Of a DNA stretch of 64,000 bases, positions 25,287 to 64,000 are shown piece after piece. The position numbers and the translations under genes are program-made. The notes beneath the pieces are model-generated. The model saw only the letters and a list, made by a program, of their open reading frames with translations, did no database searches and had not been told where the DNA came from. The DNA is from an uncultured Prevotellaceae bacterium (GTDB lineage Bacteria > Bacteroidota > Bacteroidia > Bacteroidales > Muribaculaceae): assembly GCA_900316835.1 (NCBI GenBank), contig ONEL01000002.1:163976-227975 (forward strand), given 5' to 3'. Position 1 is the stretch's first letter; each line of letters starts with the position of its first letter.

Positions 25287-25323
25287 CAAAAAATAGATTT
25301 GTTATTTAATAAAAATCATTATT

Positions 25324-27687
25324 ATGTATAAATCACTATTATTTACGGTAATGCTGTGGATTGCATCATTATCGATGGCGGCAGCCACCTATCCCGCCAG
25401 TTATTACACTCTTGCCAGTGAAGGTGGTGCCGTGCCGGGCGATGTTAATGGCGATGGTGAGTGCACAGGAAGCGACGTGACGGCACTCTATAATTACATC
25501 CTCTACAATGATAACAGCGCTATGGTCAATGGCGATCAAAACAATGATGGCGATGTGACAGGAAGCGACGTGACGGCGGTCTACAATATTATTCTTGGCA
25601 CCGGTGGTGGTACTATTGCTCCCACTTCAATCAAGATGAAAGACTATCAGAATGTCACTTCGTCCTATGTCAGCGACTACACGTGGACCAACGTCGAGAG
25701 TGCCTACTATGGTGACGTGATCTATATCACCCTCGACGGCGTGGAGCAAAACATGTATGTGCTTGTGCGCACCGGCGGCAAATGGGCGCTTAAGGACGTG
25801 GGCGGCAACAGCAAGGCTGGCTTCAAGAGCAGCGGCAACCTCAAGGCAATGTGGGTGCGTGGCGGCTATTGGAACATCGATCAGGTGTATGATATCAGAG
25901 TGCCCTATGACTACGCCCTGGGCTCAGGCACCTACACCCTAGCAGGCACCACCGTGTCGATTAACCTCAACCTCACCCTCGCCGAGAGCAAAGTGGTGCT
26001 CACAGGGTCAATGGCATCAATGATGGCCAACATGACCTATTGCTATCGCGTTAATCATGTGTATAACATCAATGCGTTTTCTAATGGCGAAACCGGAGAG
26101 CTTATCTACGGAGTGGATGGCGGAAAAAGCACGGTAATGCACATTGGCAATGAGTATTGTGTGTTTGGCGAGTTTACCGACGTCAGTTCCGACGGCAAGA
26201 CCATTTATCATGTTACCGACCCGAATGGGCGCAGCTGGAGCAAAATGGGCACCGGCAAGCTTAATGCCGGGCGCATGATAGGGCTTGCTAATCCTTATCC
26301 CTATGATGGCTCCAATGGTTGGAGTCGCGACTTCGTGATGACCTTCTGGGACTATGATGACACGCAGTCGCGCCAGCGTGTGGTCCCCGACCTGACCAAG
26401 ACCATCCACATGCTTGTGGGCACCGAAATCACCTTTGCGCCTCAAGAGGGTGGCATGACCGCCAGCGGTGGCACTACCACCAGTCGCTACACGGCCAGCA
26501 GCAATGTGGTGACAGCCATTGCAAGCACCAACAACAATTCCACCATGATCAAGGCTGTGGGAGTGGGCGAGGCCTACGTGACGTTTACCTATAGGACCTC
26601 GCAGGGTGAGAGTTTCGACTTTTATGTGCGGGTTTACGTTCAGCCCGCCGTGTGGCTCGCCGGTAGTGCCAATGGCAAGCCGATGCTCTATCGCAATAAT
26701 ACTGTCAAGTACAGCAGCCTGAGCGTGAGTGCTAACCGCATCGACCAGGTGTTTGTGCGCAATGGCACGGCTTACATCCGCGCCTCCGACAGCTCCAACC
26801 CCAATGCCGCGCCTTACATCATGCGCAGCACCAATCCAGTTTACGGAGGCTCGTTCATTCAGCGGCTCAACACTCCCATGGAGCACTTCCTGGTAACAAA
26901 GAATGGCGACATGTGGTACACTAACGGCAAGAACGTGTACAAGGGCAACACGCTGGTGTACACTCGCACCGGCAACGCCACCATTACCGACCTCAAGCAG
27001 GACGAGTCGAGTAGCAGTGGTGCGGTGTGGATTAGTGGTTACACTTGCGCCGACCCCACCAAGTCGGCAAGTAGCGACATCGCTTGGCTGGCTACCAACC
27101 TTGATGGCAATGCTTTGGTCTACAACATGCCCACCGACCGCATCACCACAGATCTTGGTGGCTATCAGCCAGGCACACAAACCTACACAGGCTATCGTAG
27201 CCCCCACTTTGGCAAGATGACCATCCAGTATAACTTTGTGCTAATTGATGGTTTCGACATCGAGGAGCATGGCTATCGCGACTACAATGGAAAAATCCAC
27301 GAGAGCTATTACACTGTGGACAAGACCTACACCTATGATTCCAGCAACGGCTTCCTGCGCCAGAACAACGTGAAATATTATGGCGACTTCTTCTTCGAGG
27401 ACCAGACCAACGAGCGCGTGTTCTTTATTGATGGAACTCTTGGTGGAACTCTGAAATATCACAACCTCAGGACCAATGAGGTGAACGATGTCAACTCGTC
27501 AATACCTCGCGTGAGACTCATGCGTTACGTTAACGGCTCGATTTATGCTTTAACCGACAATACAAGCAACCGTCAGATCCTCTATGGTACCCCAACGCAG
27601 TTCTTCAACGGCACCTACAGGACTATAAACATTAGCGGTGAGCCCTACATCTATGACATGTTTGTTGAGACTAGCGTGAACAACTGA
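25324..27687 (+). CDS. Secreted protein with an N-terminal dockerin-like doublet
   Basis: This 787-residue protein has a signal peptide (MYKSLLFTVMLWIASLSMAAA) and, directly after it, two dockerin-type calcium loops: D40-VNGDGECTGS-D51 and D71-QNNDGDVTGS-D82, each followed by a short helix (VTALYNYIL, VTAVYNIIL). The remaining 690 residues are beta-rich, with a segment at about 360-430 that resembles a bacterial Ig-like (BIG2) repeat (VGTEITF, TTTSRYTASSNVVTAIAS, VGEAYVTFTY), followed by a region of repeated strands that could be a propeller. I cannot name a catalytic domain. Doublets of this kind normally sit at a terminus. A long terminator follows. Confidence 0.87.
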   Translation: MYKSLLFTVMLWIASLSMAAATYPASYYTLASEGGAVPGDVNGDGECTGSDVTALYNYILYNDNSAMVNGDQNNDGDVTGSDVTAVYNIILGTGGGTIAPTSIKMKDYQNVTSSYVSDYTWTNVESAYYGDVIYITLDGVEQNMYVLVRTGGKWALKDVGGNSKAGFKSSGNLKAMWVRGGYWNIDQVYDIRVPYDYALGSGTYTLAGTTVSINLNLTLAESKVVLTGSMASMMANMTYCYRVNHVYNINAFSNGETGELIYGVDGGKSTVMHIGNEYCVFGEFTDVSSDGKTIYHVTDPNGRSWSKMGTGKLNAGRMIGLANPYPYDGSNGWSRDFVMTFWDYDDTQSRQRVVPDLTKTIHMLVGTEITFAPQEGGMTASGGTTTSRYTASSNVVTAIASTNNNSTMIKAVGVGEAYVTFTYRTSQGESFDFYVRVYVQPAVWLAGSANGKPMLYRNNTVKYSSLSVSANRIDQVFVRNGTAYIRASDSSNPNAAPYIMRSTNPVYGGSFIQRLNTPMEHFLVTKNGDMWYTNGKNVYKGNTLVYTRTGNATITDLKQDESSSSGAVWISGYTCADPTKSASSDIAWLATNLDGNALVYNMPTDRITTDLGGYQPGTQTYTGYRSPHFGKMTIQYNFVLIDGFDIEEHGYRDYNGKIHESYYTVDKTYTYDSSNGFLRQNNVKYYGDFFFEDQTNERVFFIDGTLGGTLKYHNLRTNEVNDVNSSIPRVRLMRYVNGSIYALTDNTSNRQILYGTPTQFFNGTYRTINISGEPYIYDMFVETSVNN

Positions 27688-27709
27688 TAGAGTGGATTGT
27701 AACAAAATT

Positions 27710-27756
27710 AACCGGAGGCGTGCTTTGGCTAAAATAAGCACGCCTCCGGTTATTAT
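27710..27756. terminator. Bidirectional terminator between convergent genes
   Basis: A perfect 16-base-pair stem (AACCGGAGGCGTGCTT at 27710-27725 with its complement at 27736-27751, 10-base loop) lies between the secreted protein gene and the convergent methyltransferase gene. Confidence 0.85.
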
Positions 27757-34986: not shown

Positions 34987-37900
34987 ATGCTTATGAAAAA
35001 AGCAATTTTATCAATCCTGATTTCACTAGGTGTAATAGTGGCTACGGCTACTATTTATCCCTATTTGAATGTGGGCCTTGACAATGGCTCGGAGGTGTCA
35101 TATCCGGCGACGGGACTGACTCTGAAATTTGAAGATGGTAAGCTGGTAGCGGCCAATGGTGGCACACTAGCGGGAAGCAACAATCTGAACAATGTGCTCT
35201 ACATGGTGTTCGGACTTGGGAAAGAAACTAGTGGCGGCGGTGACGACACGGTAGTAGCCGGCGATGTAAACGGCGATGGCGAGTGCACAGGTAGCGATGT
35301 TACCGCCCTTTACAATTACATTCTTTATAACGATAATTCAGCTATCGTCAATGGCGACCAAAACAATGATGGAGATATTACCGGTAGCGATGTGACATCG
35401 GTTTACAATATTATTCTCTTTGGTAATACTGAGGAGCCTTCAACCGGTGGAACCGTTGTTGAGGTGGGCGAGATTACTGAAGGTGACCAGACCATGTGGG
35501 TTGTTACCGGCGATGTGAAGTGGGCATTTACTACAGCTCAACTCGACACTATAGCCTACACCGACACTACTTTCACCGCACTGGGCAAGACATTCTTGAT
35601 GACAAGTGTGGATAGCATCTATGTGGACAATGTGGCAGTAGCCGACAATACTGTAGATGTGGCCTACAACGGCACCACCGCCAAGATGATTGTGGCTGGT
35701 AACATAGCCAAGAACATGACCGCCAGTGTCAATGGCGCTCACGTGGTGGCATTGCAAGATACCTGTGTGACCGAGGAGATTGTCTACACCCTGAGTGGTG
35801 AATCAACCAACGGCTCGTTCTACCAGGATGGTGACCTCAAGATAACAGTGAAACTCAACGGTCTCACCCTCAATAACCCTGATAGCGCAGCTATCAACAT
35901 TCGCGACGGAAAACGCATAGCGGTGGAACTCGTTGAGGGAACAACCAACAACCTCACCGACGGCGAGGGTGGCTCGCAAAAGGGCTGCTTTGCCGTGAAG
36001 GGACACACCGAGTTTAAGGGCGCTGGTGTGCTCAATATCACCGGTAACTCAAGCCATGCCTTCTGGGGCAAGGAATATGTTGAGGTGAAAAAGACCGTGG
36101 GCGAAATCAATATCCTGGGCGCAAAGGGCGACGGTTTCAATATCAACCAATACTATCAGCAAAATGGCGGCAAGGTGACTGTGAAGAACGTGACCGACGA
36201 CGGCATTCAAGTATCGTTTGAGACCGATGATGCCGACAACATCGAGGAAGATGTTGACAACACCGGCGAAATTACTCTCAAGGGTGGCACGCTCGACCTC
36301 ACCATGACCAGCAATGGTGGCAAGGGGCTCAAGACTCAAGGCGATTTCATCATGCAAGGTGGCGAACTCAAGGTTGTGCAAAGTGGCAACCTCGTTGTTG
36401 ACGGAGCCGACATCAGCTACGGCACCAGTGTCAAGGCCGACGGTAACATCACCATCACCGGTGGCTCGGTCGACATCAACAACACCGCGCAAGGCGGTAA
36501 GGGCCTCAACGCCGACGGAACCATCCTCATCAACGAGGAGACAGCTACTACCACTATCAATGTCAAGGCCAACGGCCAGGGTGGCACTGCCGAGACCAGT
36601 GGCTCTGAAAGTGGCGGCACAACGGCTTCTTATAGAATCTATGTCGCTAAACCCACCGGTGGTGGCTATGGCCCTGGTGGCGGTGGCAGCAATGCTTGGT
36701 CAAATGTTTACCTCTACAAGAGCGACGGCACACTGGTGGCAAATATCACCGGTAACACCGTGCAGAAGTCATCGGGCTATAGCACGCTCACATTCTATTA
36801 TTACGACTTTGGCGCTGCCGACAGTGGCACCTACTATTTCAAGAGTGACAACTACACCAGCGGTGGTGGCTGGGGTGGAGGTACAACCTACGCAATCCAA
36901 AGTGCTACCTTCAGTGGTCCCACCAGTGGCAGTGACATTTACTACGAACTTGGAGGCTACACAACCAGTGGCTCCACTCGCACTTACTCCCTAACCAACG
37001 TCACCACCACCTATGGTGGCACTAGCGACCTGAGCGAGGACACCGGCACCAGCTACAACGCTGCCGGCATCAAGGCCGACGGCAACATCACCATTGGCGC
37101 AGGCACCATCACCATTGCCAACAGTGGCGAGATGAGCAAGAGTATCAAGAGTAAGGCCACTGTTACAATTGACGGCGGCAATATCACTCTCACCCCCAGT
37201 GGCGCTATGAAGGTTATCAACAACGATGCCAGCTATAGTAGCGGCATCAAGGCTGTCGACTTTGTGATGAACAATGGCACGCTCACCATCACCTCGAGCG
37301 GAACTGCCGGCAAGGCGGTTTCAACAACCAACATCACCACCAACGGTGGCAACATCACCATCAACAACAGTGGTGCGCCACAGTCGGCATCGAGTGGCGA
37401 CTACTACACCGCTAAGGGCTTTAAGACCGACGGCAATCTCAACTTGCTTGGCGGCACAATCTACATCAAGATGACTGGCAATGGCGGCAAGGGAATCAAG
37501 GTTAATGGTAACTATGTGCAAGGCAACAGCGATGGCACAGGTGCCGCTATCACCGTTATCACCACCGGTAGCTCGGCTGGTGGAAACAGTGGAGGTGGCG
37601 GCTGGGGCCCCGGCGGCGGCATGGAAAGCAGCGGCTCGGGTAGCGCCAAGGCTATCAAGGTACTGGGCACAATAACCATCAACGGTGGTCAGAGCGAGGT
37701 TTCGACAGCCACTAACGGTGCCGAGGGCATTGAGTCAAAAACAAGTATCACCATCAATGGCGGTAACCATTACTACAAGGCCTACGACGACGGTATGAAC
37801 TGCGCCGGAGCTATCAGGTTCCTGGGTGGTGTGACTGTAGTTTATAGTAACGGCAACGACGCTGTCGACAGCAACTATGGTCATTCGGGCGCAATTGAGA

Positions 37901-38346
37901 TTGGTAACGGATGTATTGTGGCCTACACCAGCGCAGGTGGTCCTGAGGAAGGTCTCGACTGCGACTACAACAGCTACATCTCTATCACTGGCAATGGCTA
38001 CGCTATCGCCGCTGGCGGTAGCCAAGGCGGTGGCTGGGGAGGCTCAAGTGGTCTGGGTAGCGCAGTGCAAGGCTACTACCTGAACACCACTTCGCTCAGC
38101 TATACAGCAGGTCGCTACTACACCATTGCCAATAGCAGTGGCACCAACTTGATGACCTATAGCTTCGAGGCTGGTGTGTCAAGCTCTCTATCGCTTTTCA
38201 CAGCCAAGGGCATGACCAAGGGGCAGAGCTACACAGTGAAGTACAGCACCACAGCTCCTACCGATGCCACAACAGCATGGCACGGTGTGTACTTGGGAAG
38301 CTCGGCAGTGGGAACAACATCGTTTACATCATTTACAGCACAATAA
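34987..38346 (+). CDS. Secreted carbohydrate-binding beta-helix protein with dockerin-like doublet
   Basis: This 1119-residue protein has a signal peptide (MKKAILSILISLGVIVATATI; the ATG at 34993 may be the true start), a 60-residue spacer (LTLKFEDGKLVAANGG), a dockerin-like doublet (loops D93-D104 and D124-D135), then a long region resembling the Cthe_2159 carbohydrate-binding beta-helix family: ITVKLNGLTLNN, SAAINIRDGKRIAVEL, GEINILGAKGDGFNI, many short GGxxTIT-type rungs. Two Gly/Ser/Trp-rich insertions (about 555-660 and 860-890) interrupt the rungs. Homologues bind acidic plant polysaccharides such as pectate in the presence of calcium; that role here is inference. Confidence 0.88.
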   Translation: MLMKKAILSILISLGVIVATATIYPYLNVGLDNGSEVSYPATGLTLKFEDGKLVAANGGTLAGSNNLNNVLYMVFGLGKETSGGGDDTVVAGDVNGDGECTGSDVTALYNYILYNDNSAIVNGDQNNDGDITGSDVTSVYNIILFGNTEEPSTGGTVVEVGEITEGDQTMWVVTGDVKWAFTTAQLDTIAYTDTTFTALGKTFLMTSVDSIYVDNVAVADNTVDVAYNGTTAKMIVAGNIAKNMTASVNGAHVVALQDTCVTEEIVYTLSGESTNGSFYQDGDLKITVKLNGLTLNNPDSAAINIRDGKRIAVELVEGTTNNLTDGEGGSQKGCFAVKGHTEFKGAGVLNITGNSSHAFWGKEYVEVKKTVGEINILGAKGDGFNINQYYQQNGGKVTVKNVTDDGIQVSFETDDADNIEEDVDNTGEITLKGGTLDLTMTSNGGKGLKTQGDFIMQGGELKVVQSGNLVVDGADISYGTSVKADGNITITGGSVDINNTAQGGKGLNADGTILINEETATTTINVKANGQGGTAETSGSESGGTTASYRIYVAKPTGGGYGPGGGGSNAWSNVYLYKSDGTLVANITGNTVQKSSGYSTLTFYYYDFGAADSGTYYFKSDNYTSGGGWGGGTTYAIQSATFSGPTSGSDIYYELGGYTTSGSTRTYSLTNVTTTYGGTSDLSEDTGTSYNAAGIKADGNITIGAGTITIANSGEMSKSIKSKATVTIDGGNITLTPSGAMKVINNDASYSSGIKAVDFVMNNGTLTITSSGTAGKAVSTTNITTNGGNITINNSGAPQSASSGDYYTAKGFKTDGNLNLLGGTIYIKMTGNGGKGIKVNGNYVQGNSDGTGAAITVITTGSSAGGNSGGGGWGPGGGMESSGSGSAKAIKVLGTITINGGQSEVSTATNGAEGIESKTSITINGGNHYYKAYDDGMNCAGAIRFLGGVTVVYSNGNDAVDSNYGHSGAIEIGNGCIVAYTSAGGPEEGLDCDYNSYISITGNGYAIAAGGSQGGGWGGSSGLGSAVQGYYLNTTSLSYTAGRYYTIANSSGTNLMTYSFEAGVSSSLSLFTAKGMTKGQSYTVKYSTTAPTDATTAWHGVYLGSSAVGTTSFTSFTAQ

Positions 38347-43937: not shown

Positions 43938-45269
43938 TTATTCGTTACCCAGATTCAAGATGATGTTATAAACAGCGGTAACATCGCTACCGGTGATTTC
44001 GCCGTCGTGGTTAACATCACTGGTGGCAATGTAGGTAGTGTCACCGTAGAGGAGGTAGTTGTACAGAGCTGTAACGTCCGAGCCTGTCCACTCTCCGTCT
44101 TGGTTCACGTCGTCGTAGATGGGTGCTTCCTCATCTTCTACAACCCACATGCACGAGAAAGTGAAGCGGTTGTCGATCTTAGCAATGCGGGTGGTCTCGC
44201 CAGTGGTGATGTCTACCTCATAGAGGGCGGTGTCATACTTGCCGTTGGTCTTCCAGTCGCTATCGGGGAGATTAGCCCAGTTGCCATATTCGTTATAGCC
44301 CATGCCACTGTTGATGAAACCGTTCCAGTACATCTTGTTGGGGTCTTTCTTGCTGAAGCAGGCGCTCTGGCGTTTTGCTTGTGAGCAATAACCGGTGGCA
44401 CCAAGGTCATTGACAACGAGACCTGTAGCAAGATCAAATTCTATCACGTGAGCGCCAGTGAGCTCGCCATCGATGTTGTAGAACTTGCCGTCCTCACCTT
44501 CAACACCAGCTGTAGAACCGCTGGTCATGGCAAATGCACGGCCATCCTTGTTGATTGCAAAAGTAACGTAGTTTTCGTAATATAGACCTGGGGTGATGGG
44601 AGTTACCTGCATAGTCTCAGGGTCGATGGTGCAGATTGCATAACCCGAGTCAATGGTGTCGCCAAAGAAGTCGGGGTCGTTGATAATCTCATCGGGGAGT
44701 TTCACGTCGGTGAGATAGAACAAGCCATAAACCTTGTTGTCCTTGGGGTTAACACACATGCCCGCGCTCTCGAGCCATTCGCCTTTAGCGTGATACTCAC
44801 TTGCCGAGTTGAGCAAGTCGCCGGTTTCGGCATTCCACTTGCGGACGGCAAAGCGCTCGCTGTCCTCTACGTCGTCGCCATTGCGAGAAGTGACGGTAAT
44901 GATAGTGCCATTGGCATTCACGGCACCCGAGTTACCAAACATGAGGTTGAAGTTGTTGGCCCACAAAGCCATGTCGTTGTTAGTGAATTGTCCGTTTGAG
45001 TAAAAATCGCTAATGTTTACAGCAGGCTCTTTGGTGGGAGTAGACAAGCTGTTGCCATCAAGTTCCATGGCGTAGATGCCATTTTCCACCACGAAGATAG
45101 CCTTGCCTAGAGTGGTGTTATAGCCCACGTAGGTGCTATACCAATGGTCGGCATGGTCGTCGTAGCGGTTGTTATTGTACACACCCTTGATCTTGATGGA
45201 ATCGGCGCTGGTAGTAAAACTGCACAGTGCAACGATGGCAAGCACTGCAAGAGTAATTTTCTTAGTCAT
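43938..45269 (-). CDS. Secreted protein with a C-terminal dockerin-like doublet
   Basis: This 443-residue protein has a signal peptide (MTKKITLAVLAIVALCSFTTSADS), a body that looks like a beta-propeller (repeated segments such as AIFVVENGIYAMEL, YAICTIDPETMQVTPITPG, HVIEFDLATGLVVNDLG, YEVDITTGETTRIAKID) and, at the very end, two dockerin-type calcium loops D387-VNQDGEWTGS-D398 and D418-VNHDGEITGS-D429. The start at 45269 replaces a long extension to 45365 that lacks a signal. The function of the propeller is not evident. Confidence 0.86.
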   Translation of the reverse strand: MTKKITLAVLAIVALCSFTTSADSIKIKGVYNNNRYDDHADHWYSTYVGYNTTLGKAIFVVENGIYAMELDGNSLSTPTKEPAVNISDFYSNGQFTNNDMALWANNFNLMFGNSGAVNANGTIITVTSRNGDDVEDSERFAVRKWNAETGDLLNSASEYHAKGEWLESAGMCVNPKDNKVYGLFYLTDVKLPDEIINDPDFFGDTIDSGYAICTIDPETMQVTPITPGLYYENYVTFAINKDGRAFAMTSGSTAGVEGEDGKFYNIDGELTGAHVIEFDLATGLVVNDLGATGYCSQAKRQSACFSKKDPNKMYWNGFINSGMGYNEYGNWANLPDSDWKTNGKYDTALYEVDITTGETTRIAKIDNRFTFSCMWVVEDEEAPIYDDVNQDGEWTGSDVTALYNYLLYGDTTYIATSDVNHDGEITGSDVTAVYNIILNLGNE

Positions 45270-45780
45270 AAAAGAATTAATTAGTTGTTTAGTAAATATT
45301 GATAATTGTGATAATCCAGGTTTATTTAGCAGCGCAAAGTAACAAAAAATATTCCGAATAGCCAAAGAAAAACGATAAATGCCCCATAAAAAGACGATGA
45401 ATCACCTTTTTTTTGGGGGGTATTTTTTTGATGCCTGAAATTTTTGTCCTTTAGGTCATGGCTATTGTAGGGTAGTTATTTATCTTCATTGAGCTTGTGG
45501 TGAAAGTGATAAATTTCTTATATTATATATAATGTGTAGTGCCTTAGTGTTATGGGAGGTGTGGACGGTGACGCTGGTTTGATTTTTTTTTGAAAAAAAT
45601 ATCCGAGGTGCTATAAGTTGTTGAATGGTAGTGGAATAAGCGGTTCTCGGGTGGCTTTTGATGAAAGTTCTTGTGAGATTTTTTTGAAAAAAGTTTCAAG
45701 AAAGTTTTGCCAGTTTAAAAATAATGTCTAACTTTGCAACCGCTTTAGAACCCCCGTGTGGGGTTTTATTGACGGAGAAT
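45270..45780. other. Intergenic region, 511 bases, before the tRNA-tuf cluster
   Basis: AT-rich DNA with only the tRNA promoter at 45706-45736 as a supported element. Several homopolymer runs (T8, G6, T9) occur. Short frames here have no coding character. Confidence 0.6.
45706..45736 (+). promoter_or_regulatory. Promoter of the tRNA-Thr-Tyr-Gly-Thr cluster
   Basis: TTTG (45706-45709), a 19-base spacer and TAACTTTG (45729-45736): a full consensus match, identical in both boxes and spacing to the tRNA-Asp promoter. The start would be about 40 bases before the first tRNA. Confidence 0.8.
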
Positions 45781-59385: not shown

Positions 59386-59416
59386 TTTCAAAACTAAAAA
59401 CTTTTCATTATCTTTG
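59386..59416 (+). promoter_or_regulatory. Promoter of the B12 uptake operon
   Basis: TTTC (59386-59389), a 19-base spacer and TATCTTTG (59409-59416) match the Bacteroidota consensus. Transcription would start just before the riboswitch. Confidence 0.7.
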
Positions 59417-59424
59417 CACCGCAT

Positions 59425-59612
59425 TTTGGTGCTGGGCGGGCTCCATGCGGTCCCGTCCAGATAAAAGGGAACCAGGTGAGATTCCTGGACAGACCACGCT
59501 GCTGTGTTTCCCACAACCAAGTTGTAGCACACACACACATTCTATACTATCGTCACTGTCGAGAAAATGATGGGAAGGCGGTGCTACAGCGGGATAAGCC
59601 AGAAAACCTGCC
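59425..59612 (+). promoter_or_regulatory. Cobalamin (adenosylcobalamin-type) riboswitch
   Basis: The conserved blocks are in order: AAAAGGGAACCAGGTGAGAT with TCCTGGACAGACC (59463-59495), CGCTGCTGT, a hairpin closed by GTAGCAC (59524-59530) with GTGCTAC (59581-59587), GATGGGAAGGCG, and the B12 box with GGGATAAGCC and AACCTGCC near the end. It lies 43 bases upstream of the btuB ATG. When B12 is bound it should lower expression of the operon; whether by termination or by blocking translation is not clear, since no terminator follows it. Confidence 0.93.
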
Positions 59613-59655
59613 ACAATGCATTGATTTTTAACAAACTAACGGGGTTAAAAGAGTT

Positions 59656-61743
59656 ATGTTAAAGAGAATTGCCGTGTCATTGCTGGCTATTGTCGTGTGC
59701 GTCGTGGGCTTGATGGCTCAGGAAGCTAACTTTGCGCCCCAAGGGCACACCCCCTCTAATATTGACCCAATTACCGGTATCGACACCATTCAGTATTTGC
59801 AAGATGTGGTAGTCTATGGCAACAAGCCTTACGGCAATGTGATTCCGTCGCAGATGCTCAGGGGCAAGCAGCTTGAACGGCTCAACAGCCACTCGGTTGC
59901 CGATGCCATTCGTTACTTTGCCGGCGTGCAGCTTAAGGACTACGGTGGCGTGGGTGGAATTAAGACGGTGGACATGCGCTCAATGGGCACCAATCACATG
60001 GGTGTGTTCTACGACGGCATACAGCTGGGAAACGCGCAAAACGGGCAAATCGACCTGGGGCGCTTCTCGCTCGATAACATTGAGGAAATTTCGCTCTATA
60101 ATGGGCAAAAGAGCGAGATATTCCAGCCGGCACGCGACTACGGCTCGGCTGGTAGCATCTATCTGCGCACTCGCCGCCCTAAATTTACTGGTGAGAAGAA
60201 CGACAACCTCAATGTGACGATGCGCACGGGGTCGTTCGGCCTAGCTAATCCCAGTGTGAGATGGGAACACAAGTTCACACGCAATCTCACCATGTCGCTT
60301 AATGCGGAGTATACTTATGCCACAGGACAGTACCACTTCCGTTATCGCAAGCGCTTTAGCGATGGTGTGCTGGCATGGGACACAACCGCGGTGCGCAAGA
60401 ATGGCGATGTGAAAGCTTTCCGTGCCGAGGCGGCAATCTTTGGCACTACCAGTGACGGCAAGTGGAACGCTAAGGTCTACTACTACGATAGCGAGCGCGG
60501 CATCCCTGGCGCTATCGTCAATAATGTGTGGTTCAATTCCCAGCGCCAGTGGGATCGCAACTTCTTTGCGCAAGGGCGGTGGCAGCAGCGTGTGGGTGAG
60601 CGCTATGAAATGATGATAAGCGCAAAATATGCTCGCGACTACATGCGCTATCTCAACCCCGACACCACACTCATGTATCTCGACAACAAGTTCTGGCAAG
60701 ATGAAATCTACGTCTCCAGTGCCAACAAATACACCATCAAGACCGACTGGGACGTGAACTTGAGTGTTGACTACAAGTGGAACTACCTCAACTCTAATCT
60801 TGTGAATTTTGCCTATCCCACCCGCCACACGGTGCTTGCCGCACTGGCTACCGCCCGCACATGGCGAGGATTTAAGATGCAGGCTAGTGCCCTTTTCACT
60901 CATGTCAACGACCGGTATAGCGCGCGCTCGGCCGGTGTAGTGCTTGAGAAGCACAATAAGCATCTGAACAAAATAACACCAGCCGTGTTCCTCAGCTACC
61001 GGCCATGGCAAGAGCATGACTTGAATTTCAGAGCATTCTTCAAGCGCATCTTCCGCATGCCCACATTTAACGACCTTTATTACACCGACATTGGCAACGC
61101 CGGGCTCCGTCCTGAGTATGCCACACAGTGGAATGTGGGAGCTTTGTATCAGCGTTATAACGACGCTGGTGTGCTCAGTGCTATGAAATTCAGTGCCGAT
61201 GCTTATTATAATATCGTCAACGATAAGATTATAGCTGTTCCTAGCGGGCGTGGTCAATATCGCTGGATGATGCTAAACATTGGCAAGGTGAAGATTCGTG
61301 GTATCGATGTTACGGCACGCTTGGCATTTAGGCTTCCACACAGCATTGTGCTGGAAGGAGGACTCAACTACACCTACCAGCGAGCGCAGGACTACACTAA
61401 TCCTGCCGACAACCATGATGGTGGTACCTACAAGAGCCAGATTGCCTATATCCCCTGGCACAGCGGTAGTGGCACTGTGCATGCGGCGTGGAAGAATTTA
61501 GACTTTAACTATAGTTTCATCTATGTGGGAGAACGTTATCACAACAGCACTAACATTCTCGCCAATCATGAGGAGCCATGGTACACTCACGACTTGAGTG
61601 CAAGCTATTTGTTCAATGTCAAGAAGACAACACTCAAGATTACTGCCGAGGTCAATAACATCTTCAACCAGCAGTATGACGTTATTCAAAACTATCCCAT
61701 GCCAGGGCGAAACTATAGGATAATATTGAAGTTTGATATATGA
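59656..61743 (+). CDS. btuB: TonB-dependent outer membrane cobalamin receptor
   Basis: This 695-residue protein has a signal peptide (MLKRIAVSLLAIVVCVVGLMAQ), a plug domain (about 50-180; LNSHSVADAIRYFAGVQLKDYGGVGG, TVDMRSMGTNHMGVFYDG) and a 22-strand-type barrel ending in the aromatic residue pattern NYRIILKFDI. The B12 riboswitch upstream and the BtuG-like lipoprotein downstream define it as a BtuB-type receptor. The next gene overlaps its stop codon by 4 bases (ATGA), so translation is coupled. Confidence 0.93.
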   Translation: MLKRIAVSLLAIVVCVVGLMAQEANFAPQGHTPSNIDPITGIDTIQYLQDVVVYGNKPYGNVIPSQMLRGKQLERLNSHSVADAIRYFAGVQLKDYGGVGGIKTVDMRSMGTNHMGVFYDGIQLGNAQNGQIDLGRFSLDNIEEISLYNGQKSEIFQPARDYGSAGSIYLRTRRPKFTGEKNDNLNVTMRTGSFGLANPSVRWEHKFTRNLTMSLNAEYTYATGQYHFRYRKRFSDGVLAWDTTAVRKNGDVKAFRAEAAIFGTTSDGKWNAKVYYYDSERGIPGAIVNNVWFNSQRQWDRNFFAQGRWQQRVGERYEMMISAKYARDYMRYLNPDTTLMYLDNKFWQDEIYVSSANKYTIKTDWDVNLSVDYKWNYLNSNLVNFAYPTRHTVLAALATARTWRGFKMQASALFTHVNDRYSARSAGVVLEKHNKHLNKITPAVFLSYRPWQEHDLNFRAFFKRIFRMPTFNDLYYTDIGNAGLRPEYATQWNVGALYQRYNDAGVLSAMKFSADAYYNIVNDKIIAVPSGRGQYRWMMLNIGKVKIRGIDVTARLAFRLPHSIVLEGGLNYTYQRAQDYTNPADNHDGGTYKSQIAYIPWHSGSGTVHAAWKNLDFNYSFIYVGERYHNSTNILANHEEPWYTHDLSASYLFNVKKTTLKITAEVNNIFNQQYDVIQNYPMPGRNYRIILKFDI

Positions 61744-62903
61744 TATCTATAAGAAATAAAATAATGTTGCTTGTGGCATTGATGGCGATGATGCTACTGG
61801 TGGCATGTCGCGAGGAGCAGTTTATCTTTGTGCCTGAGGAGGTCGAGGTAACCCTGCCCGAGTACACCTCGCTGCAAGGCTTTTACTTGCTCAACGAGGG
61901 CAACATGAACAGCAATAAGGCAACTCTCGACTACTATAACTTCCGCACTGGGCGCTACACTCGCAACGTGTTTGCCTTTGCTAACCCCAATGTGCCCAAG
62001 GAAATGGGCGACGTGGGAAATGACCTGGGCATCTACGGCAGCAAGCTATATGCCGTCATAAATTGTTCTAACAAAATCGACGTCATGGACAAAAACACGG
62101 TGAAGAAGATTGGGCAAATTGATATTCCCAACTGCCGTTACATCAAGTTCTATGGCGGATATGCCTATGTGACAAGCTATGCCGGACCAGTTGAGTTAAG
62201 TCCCGAGTACACGCAGCGGGGCTATGTGGCTAAAATCGATACGGCAACTTTGCAGGTGGTTGACAAATGCCTGGTGGGGTTCCAGCCCGACGAGCTCGAT
62301 ATCGTGAATGGAAAGATTTATGTGGCTAACAGTGGTGGCTACATGGTGCCAAACTATGAGAACACGGTATCGGTTATTGATATTGACACCTTTACCGAGG
62401 ATTCGAGAATTGAGATTGCCATTAACCTGCAGTGCTGCAAGGCCGACAGCCATGGCATGCTGTGGCTCTCGTCGCGAGGCGACTATTACGATAATCAGAG
62501 CAGGCTATATGTCTACGACACACGTCACCAGCGGCTGGCTAAGACTCTTGACTTGCGAGTAAGCAACATGTGGCTCGATGGTGACTCTCTCTACGTGATA
62601 GGAGCGCAATTCAGCTATGTGACAATGAACTATGAGACCACCTATGCCATCATTAACACCCTCACAATGGAGCAGGTGTCGAGCAAGTTTATCACCGACG
62701 GCACCGATGCCACCATTGTCATGCCTTATGGCATCGCTGTAAATCCCATCACTAAGGATATCTATGTAACCGATGCCAGTAGCTATGTTGACGCTGGCAG
62801 GCTCTATTGCTTCTCGAGCGATGGCATCAAGAAATGGGATGTGCGCACCGGCGACATCCCTGCCCACTTCGTGTTCCTGGGCGACAACATTAATGAGAAA
62901 TAA
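61740..62903 (+). CDS. btuG: BtuG-like surface lipoprotein (beta-propeller)
   Basis: This 387-residue protein has a lipoprotein signal with lipobox LLVAC (cysteine 23) followed by a YncE-type beta-propeller: repeated blocks such as YGSKLYAVINCSNKIDVMD, GYVAKIDTATLQVVDKC, NGKIYVANSGGY and NPITKDIYVTDASSY. In gut Bacteroides, BtuG binds B12 with very high affinity on the cell surface and hands it to BtuB. Position directly behind btuB under a B12 riboswitch supports the name; binding is not shown by sequence alone. Confidence 0.87.
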   Translation: MISIRNKIMLLVALMAMMLLVACREEQFIFVPEEVEVTLPEYTSLQGFYLLNEGNMNSNKATLDYYNFRTGRYTRNVFAFANPNVPKEMGDVGNDLGIYGSKLYAVINCSNKIDVMDKNTVKKIGQIDIPNCRYIKFYGGYAYVTSYAGPVELSPEYTQRGYVAKIDTATLQVVDKCLVGFQPDELDIVNGKIYVANSGGYMVPNYENTVSVIDIDTFTEDSRIEIAINLQCCKADSHGMLWLSSRGDYYDNQSRLYVYDTRHQRLAKTLDLRVSNMWLDGDSLYVIGAQFSYVTMNYETTYAIINTLTMEQVSSKFITDGTDATIVMPYGIAVNPITKDIYVTDASSYVDAGRLYCFSSDGIKKWDVRTGDIPAHFVFLGDNINEK

Positions 62904-62915
62904 AGGCAAAAAAAT

Positions 62916-64000
62916 ATGAGACGCTATTTACTAATTTTATTTATTCTTGTTGCTGTTATGGCACAAGCTCAAAATAAGCCTTACATCACTAAGGTTTACG
63001 ACTTCTTGCCTGCACCGGGGCAGTTTGTTAATAAAGCGCCTTCTCTTAATCCTGGCGAGCCTCTCGATAGCGTGATAGCAAGAGTGGAGCGAATGATTTG
63101 CGGTCGTGAGACAATAGAGCAGGGCGAGCTCCCCGACGGCACCCTCGTTAGTGATACAATTCTTGAAGTTAAGCCTGGAGTTTTGAGCTTGGGCTCTTTT
63201 GGCGGTTATGTGATATTTGGTTTTGACCACCCTGTAGTGAATGTGAAAGGGGAGTACGACATGCAGATATTTGCTAACGCTTCACAAGCTAATAATTCAT
63301 CATCGGCAGGTGGCAGCAGTGAGCCTGGCATTGTGATGGTGAGCCGCGATGTAAATGGTAATGGCATCCCCGACGACCCTTGGTATGAACTTGCGGGAAG
63401 TGAATATAACAATTCCAAGACTCAGAAGCATTTCACTATCACTTATTATAAGCCCGACGAGAATAAGACGCCGGTTCCCGAGCCTCCGTTTATAACCGAC
63501 GCCGAGTACATCCGCTGGACTTGCAACAGTGTTGATAGCTTGCAGGAGGGATACATTCGCAAGAATAGTTTCAATGCACAAAGCTATTGGCCGGCATGGG
63601 CGGAGGGCGAGACATTAACCTTCGAGGGAACAAAACTCCCATGCAATGCTGTTGACGAGAGTGGTCAAGGCTCTTACTATGTTCAGCACTTTTTCGACTG
63701 GGGGTATGTCGATAATCGCCCCGATAATAGCTATGGTTATTATACCGATGTTACTAATGCGGTGCTTAACGATGGTTTTAATCTTGACTGGGCGGTGGAC
63801 GATGAGGGAAATCCTGTGGAACTGAAGCAGGTGGACTTTATCAAAGTTTATTGCGCCGAGCTGCAAGATTGTGGGTGGCTTGGCGAAACATCGACCGAGG
63901 TGTGCGGCGCCATCGACTTGCACCCTAATGCCGTGGCTGAGCCCGAGGTTGTGCCAGGCGATGTGAACGGCGATGGAGAATGCACCGGCAGTGACGTGAC
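62916..64000 (+). CDS. Secreted protein of the B12 operon with a dockerin-like loop, partial
   Basis: The first 361 codons are present; the gene runs off the right edge. A signal peptide (MRRYLLILFILVAVMAQAQ) is followed by a beta-rich region with VLSLGSFGGYVIFGFDHPV, DVNGNGIPDDPWYELAGSEY (a calcium-loop-like segment) and FDWGYVDNRPDN, a layout of Bacteroidota cell-surface proteins found in B12 loci. At residues 349-360 a dockerin-type loop begins (D-VNGDGECTGS-D), the same sequence as in the genes at 25324 and 34987. It lies 12 bases after btuG, so it belongs to the B12-controlled operon. A role in B12 capture, as for BtuH, is possible but not shown. Confidence 0.85.
   Translation, partial: MRRYLLILFILVAVMAQAQNKPYITKVYDFLPAPGQFVNKAPSLNPGEPLDSVIARVERMICGRETIEQGELPDGTLVSDTILEVKPGVLSLGSFGGYVIFGFDHPVVNVKGEYDMQIFANASQANNSSSAGGSSEPGIVMVSRDVNGNGIPDDPWYELAGSEYNNSKTQKHFTITYYKPDENKTPVPEPPFITDAEYIRWTCNSVDSLQEGYIRKNSFNAQSYWPAWAEGETLTFEGTKLPCNAVDESGQGSYYVQHFFDWGYVDNRPDNSYGYYTDVTNAVLNDGFNLDWAVDDEGNPVELKQVDFIKVYCAELQDCGWLGETSTEVCGAIDLHPNAVAEPEVVPGDVNGDGECTGSDV

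Follow-up and report, generated by a model that had tools for sequence, protein, structure and literature searches.

A btuB operon of an uncultured Muribaculaceae bacterium, preceded by a cobalamin riboswitch, encodes a BtuH-type protein with a C-terminal dockerin

The closest described relatives of the protein studied here are BtuH1, BtuH2 and the H domain of BtuG1 (BtuGH) from Bacteroides thetaiotaomicron (PMC8941943; PDB 7BIZ and 8BLW). The BtuH proteins of B. theta are lipoproteins or are fused to a BtuG lipoprotein, and the domain partners listed for BtuH are only an N-terminal PKD domain or a beta-propeller, if there is one at all (Putnam et al., PMC8941943). The BtuJ proteins of B. theta, which contain DUF4465, are also lipoproteins, and the tested members of the family bind B12 (PMC12751083, PMC13398666). 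BtuH, BtuJ, riboswitch control and cohesins outside cellulosomes are already known, and the surface B12-capture proteins of gut Bacteroidota have so far been studied chiefly as lipoproteins.

Dockerins bind cohesin-type domains with calcium, and cohesin folds can occur without dockerin partners. Both cellulosomal and non-cellulosomal cohesin-dockerin systems have been described (Clostridium perfringens and Archaeoglobus cohesins in the PDB). The window analysed here, a stretch of 64,000 nucleotides, lies on contig C22 of a genome (G000) of 2.84 Mb that is 98% complete, and brings a B12-binding domain and a dockerin together in one protein. Its right end holds the following features:

59410..59629, plus strand: cobalamin riboswitch aptamer (Rfam RF00174, 87.5 bits with a gathering score of 31.5, E 3e-20, full model 1-189)
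59656..61743, plus strand: btuB, TonB-dependent B12 transporter of 695 aa (8blw_A, BtuB1 of B. theta, E 1.7e-139; Plug and TonB barrel Pfam domains)
61740..62903, plus strand: btuG, beta-propeller lipoprotein of 387 aa (BtuG1 propeller, E 3.7e-40; PF16819, E 2.8e-13; lipobox LLVAC)
62916..64000, plus strand: in-window part of the btuH-dockerin gene (whole gene G000:C22:226891-228096, 401 aa)
62916..62969, plus strand: SPI-type signal peptide without lipobox, MRRYLLILFILVAVMAQA (pattern test, cleavage site estimated by eye)
62979..63929, plus strand: BtuH B12-binding domain, about residues 22-338 (phmmer alignment to 7biz and 8blw; Foldseek)
63951..64000, plus strand: start of a type I dockerin, residues 346-401 (PF00404, E 1.3e-7 over residues 347-399; match to the 6kge dockerin at 1.6 A)

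The btuB and btuG genes overlap by ATGA at 61740-61743, and 12 bases separate the btuG stop from the third reading frame, which begins at 62916. The preliminary description had proposed this order of riboswitch, btuB, btuG and a secreted protein, and both the coordinates and the RF00174 match agree with it; a thermodynamic fold of the riboswitch stretch adds no information (z -0.66). The third gene ends 121 bases beyond the window edge. When the sequence was extended to the right, it gave a 401-aa protein with a BtuH domain and a complete dockerin, followed 46 bases later by a fourth gene of 325 aa, whose product contains a DUF4465 domain (PF14717, E 1.9e-35; 4jqr, E 4.5e-20) and is hence assigned to BtuJ. 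A terminator-like hairpin of 15 pairs is located 3' of the btuJ stop (L009 6373-6410), and then comes recA on the opposite strand. Since the third and fourth genes could be read past the window edge and the hairpin follows the fourth, the unit consists of the riboswitch, btuB, btuG, btuH-dockerin and btuJ. The order btuB-btuG-btuH recurs in relatives, often with btuJ. This anatomy supports a B12-scavenging operon whose expression would be controlled by B12.

The nearest solved relatives of the btuB and btuG products are BtuB1 and the BtuG1 propeller of B. theta, and that of the third protein is the H domain of BtuG1, which is a separate protein in the window's genome. As btuG and the third protein match two parts of BtuG1, the fused G-H protein of B. 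theta locus 1 corresponds to two proteins here, with the dockerin on H. The fourth gene resembles the described BtuJ genes in being a DUF4465 gene within a btuB operon under a riboswitch. Whereas the B. theta BtuJ proteins are lipoproteins, the BtuJ of this operon begins with an SPI-like sequence and ends in a tail of about 50 residues, YxNxxG...P..G...Y..G....K (type A4), which recurs at the C-terminus at about 34 places in the genome, BtuJ included. TIGR04183 does not recognise this tail, which is perhaps a lineage-specific type IX sorting tail. The genome has two cobalamin riboswitches; the second (G000:C24:34185-34415, minus strand, about L198 8186-8416) lies directly 5' of a gene on the same strand (L198 1428-7964, minus) for a protein of 2178 aa with DUF4465 near its C-terminus and an A4-type tail. 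It is possible that this protein is a giant B12-binding surface protein.

The BtuH domain of the third protein (about 270 residues) aligns with the H domain of BtuG1 (8blw) with E 6e-59 and with BtuH2 (7biz) with E 2.1e-44 in phmmer. An AlphaFold model of the 401-aa protein based on 28 homologues (mean pLDDT 83, pTM 0.80) has 8blw and 7biz as its top PDB matches in Foldseek. We mapped the B12-contact residues listed for BtuH2 in PMC8941943 through the phmmer alignment, with residue numbers equal to the chain number + 100. The 7BIZ contacts Gln333, Asn399, Tyr510, Trp577 and Leu578 are kept, His476 is changed to Asn and Trp511 to Tyr, and Phe401 falls in a gapped loop. All 28 homologues keep the contact Gln and Asn, and nearly all keep the Trp and Leu. 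The protein thus has in common with the B. theta proteins the B12-binding domain, its fold, most of the contacts and a gene that belongs to a btuB operon behind a cobalamin riboswitch. Judged from these sequence features, it likely binds B12, and a role in B12 handling is well supported by homology.

In the preliminary description, the reading of the locus as a B12-controlled operon with a third secreted B12-capture protein, and of the dockerin as common to many secreted proteins, is supported by this annotation. Its statement that a third surface B12 protein had not been described does not hold: the third protein is BtuH, published in 2022 (PMC8941943), and reports of further surface proteins, BtuJ, BtuK and BtuL, followed in 2025 (PMC12751083). 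The locus therefore reveals no new kind of B12 protein; what sets the window's BtuH apart from the B. theta lipoproteins is an SPI signal combined with a C-terminal dockerin.

This dockerin had been seen only in part, as the window ends before its second calcium loop, and it turns out to be genuine. It comprises two complete calcium-loop/helix repeats, DVNGDGECTGSD and DQNDDGDITGSD, and the last 60 residues of the BtuH model match the solved dockerin 6kge at 1.6 A. The claim that the same module occurs elsewhere in the window also stands, with dockerins at 25435-25596 (plus strand), 35257-35415 (plus) and 43956-44117 (minus). The first two belong to large secreted proteins (25324-27687 and 34987-38346, both plus strand), in which the dockerin is near the N-terminus (about residues 37-91 and 90-143); neither protein has a recognisable sorting tail. 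The third is the C-terminal dockerin of a protein (43938-45365, minus strand) that is about 443 aa long if counted from the likely start; the first calcium loop of this dockerin is a variant (DVNQDGEWTGSD).

How BtuH is held at the cell surface appears to be a swappable trait in this family, with a lipid signal, a type IX-like tail and a dockerin as the alternatives. No lipoprotein signal was found on the BtuH-dockerin protein by a lipobox pattern test, and the lack of a lipobox together with the SPI-type start sets this BtuH-domain protein apart in its type of anchoring. A C-terminal sorting domain for type IX secretion was not found either (no TIGR04183 match), the C-terminus being the dockerin. 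The C-terminus could be read in 95 BtuH proteins. Those that end in a module, either the dockerin or another tail, have 75 SPI signals and 2 apparent SPII signals, while those without a module have SPII in 15 cases and not in 3; the signal and lipobox calls are pattern-based and not from SignalP. The C-terminal module and the lipid signal are almost mutually exclusive (Fisher p 9e-13, overstated by the relatedness of the sequences). Inspection of the five exceptions by eye showed that two look SPI and three are truncated or have a visible lipobox. In several relatives the non-dockerin C-terminal tail gives type IX sorting-domain scores. In a literature search that reached few subscription papers, we found no description of a dockerin on BtuH, or of BtuH proteins in which a C-terminal module has taken the place of the lipid anchor.

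A tree of 92 BtuH cores, 57 of them with a dockerin, placed all 57 in one clade (support 100/99) with a single change needed. The simplest reading is that the dockerin was gained once and kept, and repeated gains are rejected by the single clade. Its members come from the window's genus and related genomes. This genus is probably Sodaliphilus or a near relative. A rumen subclade (L118, L120, L121, L125, L129, L130, L133, L138, L140) has a BtuH of about 855 aa, in which about 480 additional residues separate the BtuH domain from the terminal dockerin; the fetched flanks are without btuB and btuG, and a btuJ-like gene is nearby.

The dockerin of BtuH is one of many. About 70 or more PF00404 matches were found in the window's genome, and in the 68 dockerin proteins that were read the module is at the extreme C-terminus in 54 and near the N-terminus in about seven. 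None of the 68 is a convincing lipoprotein, 19 have identical last 20 residues, and large proteins with LRR or Ig repeats belong to the set. Each of four genomes of the genus has 52-70 matches (the largest being lower bounds) and one genome of another genus has 30, with 0-6 in the rest of the family. In G000 and G057 the BtuH tag is on average nearer to the dockerins of its own genome than to the tag of any BtuH orthologue; in G080 and G100 the most similar of the orthologues' tags is nearer by a small margin. Over these four genomes, strict concerted evolution of the tags is only partly supported.

The Pfam cohesin model (PF00963) has no match in the window's genome and some in relatives. A profile built from the PF00963-positive relatives in the genus detected at least six cohesin-like domains (E 1e-28 to 1e-11):

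G000 C11:24584-24979, 25313-25660, 26763-27083 and 27390-27740: four cohesin-like domains on three proteins
G000 C20:96258-96635 and 98432-98737: one cohesin-like domain on each of two proteins
L237 4387-9592 (minus strand) and L221 2313-6448 (plus strand): the five proteins with cohesin-like domains, missed by the Pfam cohesin model

The smallest of these proteins was modelled with pLDDT 88.6, and its top PDB matches are known cohesins (E 1e-8, low identity). The supposition that the genome has no cohesin is therefore rejected. Most of the cohesin-like domains sit on proteins that also carry a dockerin; the two C20 proteins combine LRR, dockerin and cohesin-like domain with a C-terminal tail of weak to moderate Por_Secre_tail score. 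SprA, a core protein of the type IX system, is encoded in the genome (2738 bits). No multi-cohesin scaffoldin was found in the genome, in which a protein has at most two cohesin-like domains. With the known cohesin-dockerin systems the genome shares type I dockerins with duplicated calcium loops and cohesin-fold domains; it differs in the missing scaffoldin, the vitamin-binding cargo, cohesin-like domains that score below the Pfam model and a Gram-negative host with a type IX system.

Cohesin-like domains occur in 24 of 25 genomes of the genus and in 1 of 16 genomes of other families, although the profile derives from the genus and favours it. Within 79 genomes of the family, 14 have both dockerins and cohesin-like domains, 10 dockerins only, 7 cohesin-like domains only and 48 neither (p 6e-5; p 0.014 by genus). 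G041, a genome of another genus (85% complete), has 30 dockerin matches and no cohesin-like match, and either its partner was missed or its dockerins work without cohesins.

The mechanism we favour, and to which we give about even credence, is that tethering between dockerin and cohesin replaces lipidation in surface B12 capture by BtuH. At low intracellular cobamide, the riboswitch would permit synthesis of BtuB, BtuG, BtuH and BtuJ, with BtuB as the outer-membrane transporter, BtuG as its lipoprotein lid and BtuH and BtuJ as extra B12 binders. BtuH would be secreted by its ordinary signal peptide, unlipidated, and the binding of its dockerin to a cohesin-type domain of another surface protein might keep it on the cell surface or within a common surface assembly. 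Candidate partners are the two LRR-dockerin-cohesin proteins with type IX sorting-like tails and the four cohesin-like domains on the three C11 proteins. BtuH might then capture B12 and pass it to BtuBG. Against such tethering count the small number of candidate partners, six cohesin-like domains at one or two per protein for 68 dockerin proteins, the dockerins that most of these candidates themselves carry, the G041 genome and the fact that cohesin folds can occur without dockerin partners. BtuH is also without a recognisable type IX tail that would account for its passage across the outer membrane, and it could be periplasmic.

The main alternative would make the terminal dockerin-like module an outer-membrane export or sorting signal, for the type IX or another translocon, and not a plug for a partner. 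The module would then export BtuH in the way that a type IX tail does for other BtuH proteins. The module occupies the place of the type IX-like tail of relatives, 54 otherwise different proteins end in nearly identical copies (the 19 with the same last 20 residues among them), and by coordinates no dockerin protein has one of the A4 tails, all of which this alternative would account for. It sits poorly with the N-terminal copies, two of them in the window and most without a visible sorting tail, which weaken the idea that the dockerin is just another type IX tail, and with three proteins that match both dockerin and Por_Secre_tail. The predicted fold is moreover that of a normal dockerin, whereas the type IX signals that have been analysed are beta-sandwiches (PMC11285876). 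We regard an export signal as rather unlikely. A soluble periplasmic BtuH, binding B12 behind BtuB with the dockerin as a stabilising or locally interacting calcium module, would agree with the SPI signal and the lack of lipobox and type IX tail. However, related BtuH proteins encoded at this place in the operon carry sorting-like tails or lipoprotein signals, the characterised BtuH associates with the membrane and was inferred to act at the surface, and large LRR and Ig-repeat proteins of a kind typical of cell surfaces are among the other dockerin proteins; this alternative is improbable.

The dockerin might also bind a partner that is not the cell's own, such as the cohesin of a neighbouring species, a glycan or a wall component, and BtuH would then be a shed or shared B12 trap. 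The excess of dockerins over cohesin-like domains and the G041 genome fit this idea, but the BtuH tags mainly follow the dialect of their own genome and nearly every genome of the genus has cohesin-like domains, which together indicate an internal partner and leave an external one with a slim chance. That the third protein is unrelated to B12 and lies in the operon only incidentally is hardly credible in view of its BtuH homology, the kept contacts and the conserved btuB-btuG-btuH order.

If tethering by cohesins is correct, a cohesin-dockerin assembly would serve micronutrient uptake, for which we know of no earlier example. The locus offers a concrete candidate cohesin-dockerin pair with a non-carbohydrate cargo in a Gram-negative gut genus. 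More tentatively, and with less confidence than for BtuH itself, much of the surface of this Muribaculaceae genus may be a type IX-anchored cohesin-dockerin system, in which dozens of secreted proteins, the B12-capture protein included, would plug into shared cohesin proteins with no anchor of their own.

Scaffoldin-like proteins were observed in G027, a genome from another family of the order. Very large proteins (frames of 2467, 1239 and 3777 aa, at G027:C25:211542-221549 and G027:C18:53569-58938) there carry many tandem cohesin-like domains, with 24 matches in the genome.
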